Source: Salinivirga cyanobacteriivorans (GTDB lineage: Bacteria; Bacteroidota; Bacteroidia; Bacteroidales; Salinivirgaceae). From it: a stretch of 64,000 nucleotides of DNA. A program made the translations under genes and the position numbers. Under the pieces are notes generated by a model. The model saw only the letters and a list, made by a program, of their open reading frames with translations, made no database searches and was not told where the DNA came from. Location of the stretch: assembly GCF_001443605.1 (NCBI RefSeq), contig NZ_CP013118.1, positions 1 to 64,000 on the forward strand, read 5' to 3'. Below are positions 46,708-51,093 of the stretch, one piece after another; the stretch's first letter is position 1; the number at the start of each line of letters is the position of its first letter.

Positions 46708-47067
46708 TTATTCCTCCTCTTGTTTTTGTTTTGCTTGTTCTTTTTTAGCTCGCTTTTTCTCGTTGTACTCGATCGCATACTTGTCCAAACTTACAGTCAG
46801 GAAACGCATGATGCGCTCGTCACGACGGAATTCTACTTCCAACTTGTTAATGAATTCAGGATCAGCCTTGAATTCAAACAAATGGTAAAATCCAGTTGAT
46901 TTTTTCTGGATTGGGTAGGCAAGCTTACGAAGTCCCCAGTCTTCCTCGTGGATAACCTCTCCTCCTTTGGATTGGATCAATTCACGAAACTTACCAACCG
47001 CTTCCTTCATCTGTGCTCCAGACAAAACGGGATTTGCAATGAAAACGGTTTCGTACTGTTTCTGCAT
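46708..47067 (-). CDS. rpsF: 30S ribosomal protein S6
   Basis: A 119-residue small-subunit protein that binds 16S rRNA together with S18. The N-terminal [13 protein letters not shown], the central [23 protein letters not shown] and the [14 protein letters not shown] strand are typical. A charged C-terminal tail extends about 20 residues beyond the core. It is the first gene of the operon; a TAnnTTTG box lies 73 bp upstream. Confidence 0.97.
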
Positions 47068-47147: not shown

Positions 47148-47215
47148 GGGTTATTTTTTTATTTTCGAAAATATTTTACTCTTTTTATCTCATCCTTATT
47201 AAGATCGTACGCTAT

Positions 47216-47327
47216 AAATAAAAAAGAGCCCGGATCGCCGGGCTCTTAAGAAGCAAACATTAAACTAATTGTGAAAATTTAATAAAGTTCTAAATAAAAA
47301 TAAGTGATTATGTCTTGAAAAGTTCTG
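47216..47327 (-). ncRNA. Candidate small RNA of about 110 nt
   Basis: No reading frame of note lies here. A consensus promoter box (TATATTTG, 47338-47331) upstream and a strong GC-rich terminator (47247-47220) at the end define a short minus-strand transcript. Its first 75 nt are A/U-rich and look unstructured. The neighbouring rpsF operon has another candidate promoter closer in. The transcript could alternatively be an attenuated leader of rpsF. No known RNA family was recognised. Confidence 0.45.
47220..47247 (-). terminator. Strong minus-strand terminator without a gene upstream
   Basis: On the minus strand AGAGCCCGG (47246-47238) pairs with CCGGGCTCT (47233-47225) around a CGAT loop, followed by a T run. 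On the plus strand no T run follows. No minus-strand gene lies upstream to account for it. Confidence 0.9.
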
Positions 47328-47359: not shown

Positions 47360-47398
47360 GGTTAAACCTCGGTTAAAAAGGGTTAAAGAAAGGTTAAA
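47360..47398 (+). repeat. Four GGTTAAA repeats spaced one helical turn apart
   Basis: GGTTAAA occurs at 47360, 47371, 47381 and 47392, with start-to-start distances of 11, 10 and 11 bp. All point the same way on the same face of the helix. Such direct repeats are the usual binding pattern of OmpR/PhoB-family regulators, and one is encoded downstream. The array lies between divergent promoters. Confidence 0.8.
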
Positions 47399-47425: not shown

Positions 47426-47433
47426 TAGATTTG
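47426..47433 (+). promoter_or_regulatory. -7 element of the rprXY promoter
   Basis: TAGATTTG matches TAnnTTTG, 30 bp before the histidine kinase start. The -33 position holds TTTA (47404-47407) rather than TTTG, which fits a promoter needing an activator bound at the adjacent GGTTAAA array. Confidence 0.55.
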
Positions 47434-47462: not shown

Positions 47463-48971
47463 TTGAAAAAAAGACAGATAAAATACATTATTGGGTTAGT
47501 CAGTTTTGCCATGGCAGGCATCATCTTAGTTCAGCTATTATGGATAAACAATACCATGTCTGAAAATGAAAAACGTTTTAGTGCCCGGGTATATGCCATG
47601 CTTAACCGCGTGGTACAAAAAACTGAACGTAATGAAGTGGCCCTGATGTACCGCCTGAAACCCCAGAATTTAAGGCAATATCAGGGTAATTCTAATCGGA
47701 GAAATACCCAATTGGACTCCATTTTCAAAGAACTAAATAACCAATCAATGGAGCAAATGCGGGAGATGACAAAAGCCAGTCCTTTTGGGAAGGAAATAAA
47801 TAAACTACTGGACCATTTCGACAGCATGCAATCGATGATGGATAGGAGAATGCAGGGAAAGGATCAACAATTACAATCAATGCACCAATGGTTGAGTTTT
47901 GAAGCAGAAGTAAAACAGTTACCATTGAAAAAGCGCCTGCAATTGAGTGGTCTGGAACCCATTCTAATGGCAGAAAAACGTAATTTTAATATTACCATTC
48001 CTATGGAATATGGCGTTGTAAAGCCCGATTCAAATAAACCTGCCATTGCATCAGGCCAATTCATTAATGATAAAACTGATGCCACATATAAAGCAGAAAT
48101 ATTTCCTAATGATGTATTGGGCACCAGTCCGAAATTAATTGTACAATTTCCGGGTAAACAGCGCTTTCTGATGCACTCTATTCAATGGTTGCTAGTGCTT
48201 TCGCTGTTGTTTACACTCATAATTTTAGTGGCTTTTTATTTAACTGTACGTACCATTATTCAGCAAAAAAAGTTATCGGAAATAAAAAACGATTTCATTA
48301 ATAACATGACCCATGAGTTAAAGACGCCCATTGCCACTATAAGTCTGGCGTCAGATGCCATGAACCGTACTATTAATGAATCGGCATCGGGTTTTACAAA
48401 AATTATAAAACAGGAAAGCGAGCGCATGCACAAACATGTGGAGCATATTCTGCAAATGGCCAGAATAGATAAAAATGAGTTTAAAATACAGCCTGAGCTT
48501 ATTGAAGTGAACGAATTTGTGCAGGATGTCCTGGAAAATCAAAAATTACGCATAGAAGAAAAAGACGGAAGCAGTCAGCTAAATTTGAGTGATGAAAAAC
48601 TACAGGTTGAAGCAGATCGTGACCATTTTGCCAATGTGTTGTATAATTTGATTGACAATGCTATTAAATATACAACAAAGGCCCCGGAAATAACTATAAA
48701 TATATGGAAAAGAGATAGTTATGCTTTTATCTCCCTGGCCGATAAAGGAATTGGTATGTCAAAGGATACACAAAAAAGGATTTTCGATAAATTTTATCGT
48801 GCCAGCACAGGAAACGTACACAATGTAAAAGGTTTTGGGCTGGGCCTTAGCTATGCAAAGGCAGTTATGGAACGTCATAATGGCGACATTTTGGCAAAAA
48901 GCGAATTAAATAAGGGGTCGGTTTTTACACTTAAACTCCCCATTGCTGAAGAAAATTTCGACAATAAATAA
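47463..48971 (+). CDS. rprX: Sensor histidine kinase, RprX-like
   Basis: A 502-residue membrane sensor kinase. Two membrane segments (about 8-28 and 242-264) enclose a periplasmic domain of about 210 residues, rich in Gln and Met in its first part. The HisKA domain has His284 in NMTHELKTPIA. The ATPase domain has NLIDNAIKYT, DKGIGM and GFGLGLSYAKAV. No ATG suits the start, so TTG at 47463 is used. It pairs with the regulator gene 11 bp downstream. The RprX name rests on the strong RprY likeness of that partner; the signal is unknown. Confidence 0.88.
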   Translation: MKKRQIKYIIGLVSFAMAGIILVQLLWINNTMSENEKRFSARVYAMLNRVVQKTERNEVALMYRLKPQNLRQYQGNSNRRNTQLDSIFKELNNQSMEQMREMTKASPFGKEINKLLDHFDSMQSMMDRRMQGKDQQLQSMHQWLSFEAEVKQLPLKKRLQLSGLEPILMAEKRNFNITIPMEYGVVKPDSNKPAIASGQFINDKTDATYKAEIFPNDVLGTSPKLIVQFPGKQRFLMHSIQWLLVLSLLFTLIILVAFYLTVRTIIQQKKLSEIKNDFINNMTHELKTPIATISLASDAMNRTINESASGFTKIIKQESERMHKHVEHILQMARIDKNEFKIQPELIEVNEFVQDVLENQKLRIEEKDGSSQLNLSDEKLQVEADRDHFANVLYNLIDNAIKYTTKAPEITINIWKRDSYAFISLADKGIGMSKDTQKRIFDKFYRASTGNVHNVKGFGLGLSYAKAVMERHNGDILAKSELNKGSVFTLKLPIAEENFDNK

Positions 48972-48982
48972 AGCATTATACC

Positions 48983-49672
48983 ATGAAGGTTTATAGAATA
49001 TTTTTAGTAGAGGATGACATCAATTTTGGTACTGTATTACGATCGTATCTCGAAATGAATAAATATACGGTAACCTGGATTGATGACGGTGAAAAAGCTA
49101 TTGACGCCTTTCAAAAACAATCATATGACATTTGTATTCTGGATGTCATGCTTCCCCATACCGATGGTTTTACCATAGCAAAAGAAATACGCAAGATAAA
49201 TCCGCATATTCCATTTATATTCCTTACGGCTAAATCAATGAAGGAAGATATACTGGAAGGATTCAAAATTGGTGCTGATGATTATATTACCAAACCTTTC
49301 GACTCAGAAGTATTGCTTTACAAGATAAAAGCCATTTTGCGCCGCAAATCCATTAACCAGGAGGAAGAGAAAGAGGTTAAAGTTGGTAAGTACACTTATA
49401 ACATTTCCAGACGTATACTCAAGCTGGGAGATAACGAACAAAAACTAAGTCCGAAAGAGGGCGCTTTAATGCACCTTTTTGCGCGTAATGTAAATCAGGT
49501 CGTTAACAGAGACCTGGCGTTGCGCGAGATTTGGGGCGAAAGTTCATATTTTACCACGCGCAGCATGGATGTATACATCACTAAACTTAGGAAATATTTA
49601 AAAGATGACCCGGCGCTCCATATCGAAAATGTGCATGGAAGTGGCTATATACTTCACCACAATCCAAATTAA
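48983..49672 (+). CDS. rprY: OmpR-family response regulator, RprY-like
   Basis: A 229-residue regulator with a receiver domain (about 1-122; Asp11, Asp12, phospho-acceptor Asp54 in ILDVMLP, Thr82, Lys104 in DDYITKPF) and a winged helix DNA-binding domain (about 135-227). The segment KEDILEGFKIGADDYITKPF closely resembles Bacteroides RprY as remembered. This family binds direct repeats about one helical turn apart, like the GGTTAAA array in front of the kinase gene, so it may autoregulate. Its last 4 bp overlap a small minus-strand reading frame. Confidence 0.9.
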   Translation: MKVYRIFLVEDDINFGTVLRSYLEMNKYTVTWIDDGEKAIDAFQKQSYDICILDVMLPHTDGFTIAKEIRKINPHIPFIFLTAKSMKEDILEGFKIGADDYITKPFDSEVLLYKIKAILRRKSINQEEEKEVKVGKYTYNISRRILKLGDNEQKLSPKEGALMHLFARNVNQVVNRDLALREIWGESSYFTTRSMDVYITKLRKYLKDDPALHIENVHGSGYILHHNPN

Positions 49673-49862: not shown

Positions 49863-49958
49863 TTAAGCAGACGATTACGTAATTTAAGCGAAAATACAAC
49901 TGCTTAATTTTAGTTAAGCAAAGCTTAAATATTTTTAAGTATCCCTGAATTTGCTTAA
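49863..49958. repeat. Cluster of GCTTAA/TTAAGC hexamers
   Basis: TTAAGC occurs at 49863, 49884 and 49914, GCTTAA at 49902, 49923 and 49953, and TTAAGT at 49935. Two sets form inverted repeats with a 6-bp spacer (49902-49919 and 49923-49940), 21 bp apart. The cluster fills the divergent region between the small ORF and the next gene and looks like an operator array. Confidence 0.65.
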
Positions 49959-49980
49959 TTTTGCTGAAAAGATTTTAGCC

Positions 49981-51093
49981 ATGCTTCAGTTCAATTTTAA
50001 AAGGCCACTCCAGGAAGTCCTTTCGAGGCTTCTACTGCGTACCTTTCCGGGTATCGATAAGGTATGGCTTATTGCTGAAGACGCCGAATCTGAAAACTTT
50101 AATCTTTTTGAAGCCAATCAGCATAATCAAAAAGCGCAGCTTGTAAATAAGGTTCAGGTGAAAAAGAATAACTACCTGAATTCCAAAAACTTTTACCGAT
50201 GGACCAGTTTAAACGAAACGCCATTAACCGCTGACAAAGAGGCTCAAAAACAGTTTAATATTTTTGATGAATACAAAAATAGAATACTACACCTGTACAT
50301 TCCCCCTGTTGATGATCAGTTTATAGTACTGTATATATTTTTTAATGAGCGACAGGCATTGACAGGAGCTCGTGCCGACAGCCGTTTATCGACAGAGCAT
50401 AAAGAGCTTGTGGCCCACACCATTTACCATTTACTCAATTATGAATGTGAACGCTACAGTTCCGATAACCGGGTTGCTGACCACATTCGCAATATGCAAC
50501 AAAGAATGAGCTCTGCACGTCAAAGCACTGGTCAGGAAGATTTCATGGAAGCTTATATCGAAGAGTACCTTGTGCAGGCCGCGCAAAAACATGGGTATAC
50601 AATTCAAATCAATAAAAATGCCCTGAACTACCTCACCAATCAACAACTAAGCCCGTCGGAGCTAAAACAAATACTTGAAGAGGCCATTGCCTGGCTGAGT
50701 AACTTTGGCACAGACGAAGAAGTTTTGACCATTGAAGAAGCGCATGTAATCAAACCTGCTCAGGCTACCCCCCAAATGCATGGCAATCATGATCACCGGC
50801 ACGACGGAAAATACAATCGAACATTTGATTTACTTGAAAAGCTGGAAGCAGCAGGCCAAAGAGTTGTACAAAACGGACAGCGATTAACCGGTGTGAATGT
50901 TGGGTTGGCCTGGGAGCCCTCTATTAGTGCGCCCGCCATAACAGATGCCCTACGTAAACACCGACAAAAAATACAAACACTGGCACGTTTGTATCCTGAC
51001 CGCTGGCAGGTTATGCGTACCCAGTTTAAACCGCTGCATAATGTACTTGAATCAAATGATGAAATATTGCCCGGCGAGATGCAAAGTGCCTAA
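49981..51093 (+). CDS. Unknown cytoplasmic protein, possibly GAF-like
   Basis: The ATG at 49981 gives 370 residues; a start ten codons upstream would lie in the hexamer cluster. Residues about 10-165 alternate strands and helices in a GAF-like way (VWLIAEDAE, LHLYIPPVDDQFIVLYIFF). Residues about 210-255 (QINKNALNYLTNQQLSPSEL) recall the helical lid of NtrC-type activators, but no AAA+ core is present. The C-terminal 90 residues are helical and basic. No signal peptide or membrane segment is seen. Function not recognised. Confidence 0.7.
   Translation: MLQFNFKRPLQEVLSRLLLRTFPGIDKVWLIAEDAESENFNLFEANQHNQKAQLVNKVQVKKNNYLNSKNFYRWTSLNETPLTADKEAQKQFNIFDEYKNRILHLYIPPVDDQFIVLYIFFNERQALTGARADSRLSTEHKELVAHTIYHLLNYECERYSSDNRVADHIRNMQQRMSSARQSTGQEDFMEAYIEEYLVQAAQKHGYTIQINKNALNYLTNQQLSPSELKQILEEAIAWLSNFGTDEEVLTIEEAHVIKPAQATPQMHGNHDHRHDGKYNRTFDLLEKLEAAGQRVVQNGQRLTGVNVGLAWEPSISAPAITDALRKHRQKIQTLARLYPDRWQVMRTQFKPLHNVLESNDEILPGEMQSA

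Follow-up and report, generated by a model that had tools for sequence, protein, structure and literature searches.

Response regulators of the OmpR/PhoB family, once phosphorylated, occupy direct repeats in a head-to-tail arrangement and touch RNA polymerase from a position immediately upstream of the core promoter. On the pho box, PhoB occupies 11-bp direct repeats that stand in for the upstream promoter element, and in the CpxRA-CpxP divergon of Escherichia coli the direct-repeat regulator sites, with the half-site GTAAA, lie between the sensor/regulator operon and a divergent gene for a secreted protein. RprX/RprY is the only two-component system that was called essential in a transposon screen of Bacteroides fragilis (PMC4072883), and RprY of Porphyromonas gingivalis is reported to bind its own promoter by EMSA (PMC3646045) and is described as a repressor (PMC6032018). 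No RprY binding motif was found in the main text of either of the latter two papers, and in the papers looked up on GTTAA and response regulators the GTTAA was part of primers. According to one report, TAnnTTTG is the -7 consensus of the primary sigma factor in B. fragilis and is seen in Flavobacterium johnsoniae too, no -33 box having been found in the promoters of the latter generally (PMC7366714).

Here, we focus on a 64-kb window (the whole stretch of DNA that was analysed, 64,000 nucleotides of Salinivirga cyanobacteriivorans) in which an array of four half-sites lies between two divergent TAnnTTTG boxes. Judged from sequence comparison, this array is probably an autoregulatory, bidirectional operator of an OmpR/PhoB-type regulator, which would bind it and activate from it. 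The features concerned are the following:

47360-47366, plus strand: half-site 1, GGTTAAA (sequence match)
47371-47377, plus strand: half-site 2, GGTTAAA, step 11 (sequence match)
47381-47387, plus strand: half-site 3, GGTTAAA, step 10 (sequence match)
47392-47398, plus strand: half-site 4, GGTTAAA, step 11 (sequence match)
47426-47433, plus strand: TAGATTTG, assigned to the kinase/regulator operon as its -7 box; it follows the last GTTAA start by 33 bp, a distance kept in relatives
47463-48971, plus strand: sensor histidine kinase (HisKA, HATPase_c) with a TTG start (ORF and domains)
48983-49672, plus strand: clade-A response regulator (Response_reg, Trans_reg_C), a sister of RprY (ORF, domains, tree and NCBIfam)
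47338-47331, minus strand: TATATTTG, assigned to the divergent transcript as its -7 box; it precedes the last GTTAA start by 55 bp, a distance kept in relatives
47313-47218, minus strand: relic, the 3' end and downstream stretch of the divergent secreted-protein gene (comparison with congener G002)
47247-47224, minus strand: terminator-like hairpin that would end the relic transcript (sequence)
47147-47140, minus strand: TATTTTTG, separate -7 box of the rpsF operon (sequence)
46708-47067, minus strand: rpsF (ribosomal protein S6), neighbouring operon outside the proposed switch (ORF and domain)

The likeness to CpxRA-CpxP lies in the relatives of the window, where direct repeats are placed between a sensor operon and a divergent secreted-protein gene. 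Such a gene sharing the regulatory region is present in many relatives and in the congener G002, but was not found in the window genome; the likeness is one of layout, the half-site being GTTAA instead of GTAAA and two of four scanned secreted proteins carrying a type IX tail. With PhoB and its pho box, the window shares a regulator of the same type and 11-bp direct repeats that would replace the upstream promoter element, whereas its steps alternate (11-10-11), its layout is bidirectional, its half-site is different and its -7 box is that of the Bacteroidota. The nearest family by profile is RprX/RprY of B. fragilis and P. gingivalis (NF051850): the B. fragilis RprY locus (L148) has a GTTAA half-site and 33 bp to the -7 box, as in the window, and the autoregulation reported for P. 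gingivalis RprY (PMC3646045) is like that proposed here. However, the window regulator falls below the NF051850 cut-off, belongs to a sister clade and has a step of 11 instead of 10 bp, and the kinase adjoins the regulator in the window, unlike in P. gingivalis (PMC5706477).

A first-pass annotation of this DNA had described four identical GGTTAAA heptamers at 11-, 10- and 11-bp spacing, and these are borne out, with starts at 47360, 47371, 47381 and 47392 on the plus strand. GGTTAAA is without overall enrichment in the 64-kb window (19 occurrences on both strands versus 17.87 expected), and the improbable part is its clustering, not the window-wide count. When the 395-bp intergenic region was shuffled 20000 times with its dinucleotides preserved, no shuffle contained four GTTAA at 10/11-bp steps, and two contained three; across 300 shuffles of the 64 kb, no phased GTTAA chain was longer than two, and more than two GGTTAAA never fell inside 40 bp in the shuffles. 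Direct repeats about one turn apart at a promoter, by which OmpR/PhoB-family sites are recognized, are seen in the steps of 11, 10 and 11 bp, as well as in a periodicity over 118 related regions described below.

The window regulator matches PF00072 (7.1e-30) and PF00486 (5.2e-18), a receiver and a Trans_reg_C winged helix, and by its domains is of the OmpR/PhoB type. It had been called RprY-like, which stands insofar as the RprY model NF051850 is its best NCBIfam match, but its score of 291.1 bits is below the cut-off of 370, compared with 438.8 for B. fragilis L148. Five other clade-A regulators score 268-286, one set-C regulator 297.5 and the own-genome paralogue 241.3, while among three more clade-B regulators L127 (384.7) passes and L139 (357.9) and L134 (321.3) fall short, so that the cut-off is narrower than clade B. 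A quick tree without bootstrap separates the 31 rows of clade A from the 82 rows of clade B, B. fragilis RprY being among the latter, with SH-aLRT values of 96 and 95; by this placement, the window regulator is a sister of RprY, outside the RprY clade, and not RprY itself. Support for set C is weak (85 for 13 rows), and the placement of L204, L092 and L344 is ambiguous. Downstream of the regulator, a 380-aa ORF at 49951-51093 has no Pfam or NCBIfam match at E 0.001. At L148, L145, L160 and other Bacteroides-type loci, rpsF is located within about 1 kb downstream of the regulator on the same strand, and it neighbours this regulator family in differing orientations.

The comparison covered 118 distinct regions of up to 400 bp before kinases that are followed by a regulator related to that of the window; the region of the window is one of them, one pair (L141 minus) is unrelated, and the relatives in all counts are not independent of one another. 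GTTAA pairs recur at step 10 in 58 regions and at step 11 in 26, on the plus strand only, versus 0-5 regions each for steps 5-9 and 12-18, 7 for step 19 and 0-3 for the minus strand, with harmonics of the periodicity at 20-21 and 30-32. A pair at step 10 or 11 is present in 69 of the 118 regions, and there the distance from the last GTTAA to TAnnTTTG is 32 (23 pairings), 33 (27), 34 (4) or 31 bp (2), 56 in total, the others being scattered. The exact pair is missing in 49 regions; among the 37 pairless regions with a -7 box, the right place carries 8-9 of 10 letters in 10 regions, compared with 12 of 370 at control offsets. The first-pass annotation had staked its reading on the presence of the array in close relatives, and within the genus both congeners carry it, with the steps of the window in G002 and 11-10-10 in G001; the exact pair was not found in three genomes of the same family, one of which (G005) has 9 of 10 letters at an 11-bp step. 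In the search for GGTTAAA repeats that it had suggested, the heptamer pair is unenriched in 60 relatives (17 matches in 11 genomes versus 18 in 13 genomes for the control, summed by hand), and on this comparison the conserved unit outside the genus is GTTAA, not the full heptamer. The array-plus-box pattern matches in 261 of 393 genomes and is not specific to kinase/regulator operons; it gives 64 matches in genomes G000-G059 versus 12 for the control (summed by hand), and 14 of 32 matches judged by eye lie clearly, and 3 possibly, before a kinase. Taken as a whole, the comparison supports a tie between the array and this kinase/regulator operon across genera and families, at a fixed distance from the -7 box.

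Exact GTTAA tetrads whose middle step is 10 bp are found in 83 of 393 genomes of the order, a pattern whose reversed control also matches (49 in 11 of the 393 genomes, summed by hand). When 15 satellite places in three genomes were dropped from the 119 places listed, 104 non-satellite tetrads were left: 70 with steps 11-10-11 (58 genomes), 19 with 10-10-10, 12 with 11-10-10 and 3 with 10-10-11. Among the places listed, 11-10-11 is the commonest kind, and it appears as a conserved architecture. Tetrads with an 11-bp middle step were found in 13 genomes, 14 of the 26 places listed being tandem satellites in three genomes; satellite-like tandem GTTAA is seen in G342, G096 and G215, with a layout unlike that of the tetrads. 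Forty of the 119 tetrad places were examined in context, genomes with several arrays being preferred. Within this sample, 27 of the 33 arrays with 11-10-11 lie upstream of a kinase (14 with a clade-A regulator, 12 with a set-C regulator and 1 cut by the contig end) and 6 upstream of other genes. Three of six 10-10-10 arrays precede a clade-B pair, one precedes a kinase at a contig end and two are without such a pair, and the single 11-10-10 array examined is located before another kinase/regulator pair. One 11-10-11 array (L325, G176:C1:296625-296661) has a -7 box 13 bp after the last half-site start and a secreted peptidase-like gene (by eye) downstream, a target that is possibly repressed.

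Clade-A arrays include an 11-bp step in 22 of 23 cases, the exception being L174 (Tenacibaculum), and arrays of the RprY clade, clade B, have 10-bp steps only (42 of 42). On a second tree, for which 25 array-bearing clade-B rows drawn at random were combined with new loci, the step trait needs 2 changes versus 23 for shuffled labels, and in G017, G107 and G352 a set-C pair with 11-10-11 occurs together with a clade-B pair with 10-10-10. Across the rows compared, the recognition helix, RSMDV[YF]I[TS][KR]LRK[YHF]L, is nearly constant, and the residues kept in A and C and changed in B include G185 (39/43 in A, 14/15 in C, 7/82 in B). In clade A, the base preceding GTTAA is mostly G or A, with G accounting for 21 of 25 cases at site 2; in set C it is T, in 11 of 14 cases at site 2 and in all 14 at site 4. 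Linker length was rejected as the reason for the step difference, the lengths overlapping.

The array ends 27 bp before the plus-strand -7 box and leaves the box itself uncovered. No TTTG lies 18-22 bp upstream of this box in the window, and the lack of a -33 element remarked on earlier extends to 58 of 59 promoters of the same type: TTTG is found at this distance in 1 of 59 versus 2.1 expected by shuffling, and TTG in 5 of 59 versus 8.4. Since none has been found across the promoters of F. johnsoniae in general (PMC7366714), the absence of a -33 box is weak evidence. The earlier proposal that the regulator activates its own operon is supported by comparison, given the linkage to the operon across genera and families, the fixed -7 distance and the lack of a detectable -33 box.

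The bidirectional layout recurs in relatives. The plus -7 box lies 32-33 bp after the last half-site start in 28 of 37 clade-A arrays, and a minus-strand TAnnTTTG is found 54-56 bp upstream of this start in 26 of the 37 distinct arrays of clade A and in 14 of the 16 arrays of set C (55 in the window), two more clade-A arrays having it at 65 because a further half-site shifts the anchor. Measured from the first half-site, the minus box lies at 22-24 bp in 13 of 23 clade-A flanks versus 0.06 expected by shuffling. The divergent transcript had been added to the regulator's targets with a mere "perhaps", and the kept distance makes a stronger case for it. The view that the minus -7 box is unconserved in the genus was rejected, as it is kept in 3 of 3 when measured from the array. 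Among 41 clade-B arrays, the minus box is at 43 in 9 and at 53 in 7, which suggests that some of them likewise have a spaced minus box.

The gene on the side of the minus box encodes a secreted protein in many relatives. By a crude home-made signal-peptide rule, which missed at least one case (L109) and passed another doubtfully (L120), a divergent ORF with a signal-peptide-like start is present in 13 of 31 clade-A rows (an ORF being present in 23), 8 of 14 clade-A tetrad loci (ORF in the short flank in 9), and 13 of 16 set-C rows (ORF in 14), versus 6 of 45 other rows having an ORF. The type IX secretion tail PF18962 scores above cut-off in two of four scanned divergent proteins of clade-A loci, and pairwise BLAST groups 14 divergent proteins (12 from clade A, 2 from clade B) into a loose family that evolves fast. 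In set C, the divergent genes at L090, L212, L327 and L329 encode short secreted proteins that are Lys/Cys-rich, several being also Asp-rich.

In the congener G002, a 234-aa ORF with a signal-peptide-like start lies between the array and rpsF; its product has no match in the window genome or in congener G001 at E 0.001, and no Pfam family above cut-off. Positions 47313-47218 (minus) of the window have 78% identity to the G002 stretch that spans the 3' end of this gene into its terminator, and the minus promoter of the window leads directly into this relic and then the terminator. By this comparison, the divergent secreted-protein gene is lost in the window genome, and the divergent output here would therefore be a short relic RNA of about 110 nt. 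As a sequence, the divergent promoter in the first-pass annotation is real, but it has lost its gene and the rpsF operon is not its target; array-driven expression of rpsF was rejected in view of the separate rpsF -7 box and the intervening terminator. A conserved small RNA was also rejected, as the G002 comparison identifies the minus-strand transcript with the 3' end of the gene lost here. Rfam gave no match at gathering in the 64-kb window, and weak sRNA matches within 47206-47315 (minus) were dismissed as chance (MicF 27.7 bits vs 79, rteR 23.8 vs 72). A 30-bp stretch of the relic, 47284-47313, has 97% identity to the leader and start of a SusC-like gene (named by eye) in the same genome (C1:2909739-2909768), with similar copies in both congeners, so that one gene's 3' end resembles another's 5' leader.

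In the whole genome, GGTTAA-N4/5-GGTTAA gives six matches at three loci, a number that is unremarkable alone because the reversed control gives 3. The loci are this array, the region upstream of a paralogous kinase/regulator pair (C1:1625173-1625200, minus) and the inside of a gene at 3919408, the last being judged chance. A GTTAA pair plus a -7 box occurs at three places, with 0 for the control: this array, the paralogous pair (C1:1625139-1625188, the array reaching 1625200) and C1:3448101. At the paralogous pair (C1:1625139-1625200; L204, L225), three GGTTAA at 11-bp steps are followed by a -7 box 31 bp after the last start, and a divergent 472-aa ORF has a signal-peptide-like start. The pair and box at C1:3448101-3448150 (L226), located before a 221-aa membrane-protein-like ORF and a small HTH-regulator-like ORF (by eye), may mark a possible further target. 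As three places in the genome fit the pair and box, the strong-site regulon looks small.

From these data we infer binding by the window regulator, dimer pairing, activation over repression and a role for the secreted protein, along the following lines. The regulator encoded 1.6 kb downstream would bind the array as its operator in the form of two head-to-tail dimers, on half-sites 1+2 and 3+4, with 11 bp inside each and a 10-bp step between them; 11-10-11 would most simply represent two dimers side by side. The bound phosphorylated regulator would end just upstream of the would-be -33 box position and recruit the Bacteroidota RNA polymerase to the plus -7 box, thereby activating its own kinase/regulator operon. 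The same array would activate the divergent promoter, the -7 box of which begins 22-24 bp from the first half-site, and which would drive the secreted-protein gene in many relatives and the short relic RNA here.

The main rival is auto-repression, in which the regulator on the array would lower both its own operon and the divergent transcript. P. gingivalis RprY, called a repressor (PMC6032018), binds its own promoter (PMC3646045), and the -7 box of the L325 array, 13 bp after the last half-site start, is at a place suiting repression; in the window, however, the array stops 27 bp short of the plus -7 box without covering it, and 58 of 59 such promoters have no TTTG where a -33 box would be, which suits activation. 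We regard repression as unlikely. The array might instead be read mainly by another regulator, such as the set-C-like paralogue at C1:1623134, which has three GGTTAA at 11-bp steps in its own promoter. The nearly equal recognition helix in the rows compared would allow this, and 11-10-11 is shared by sets A and C, which occur together in G176, G219, G234, G121 and G338; yet every array is located at the operon to which it belongs, and the base in front of GTTAA is not the same, being mostly G/A in clade A and T in set C, which leaves such cross-reading very improbable. That the array is a functionless AT-rich chance repeat or satellite, of the kind suggested by tandem GTTAA satellites in a few genomes (G096, G342, G215), is scarcely credible against 0 of 20000 shuffles and a place, step and distance to two promoters kept across families. 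Given the OmpR/PhoB mode of binding and the two-dimer pattern, autoactivation with a coupled divergent output is the best reading.

Beyond this locus, it may tentatively be proposed that sister regulators of one cell, all reading GTTAA, are separated by the step (11 bp in clade A and set C, 10 bp in the RprY clade), with a few non-helix positions (e.g., G185) tracking the step, and that each array, itself directional, serves two promoters whose distances from it are fixed but unequal, and in this way links a secreted protein to the sensor operon; we consider this broader scheme possible rather than probable. If the reading given here is true, the arrays would provide a ready operator, testable base pair by base pair, for this regulator family across a bacterial order, a handle on the regulon of the family, and a natural experiment on whether sister regulators can be kept apart by a difference of 1 bp in the repeat step.
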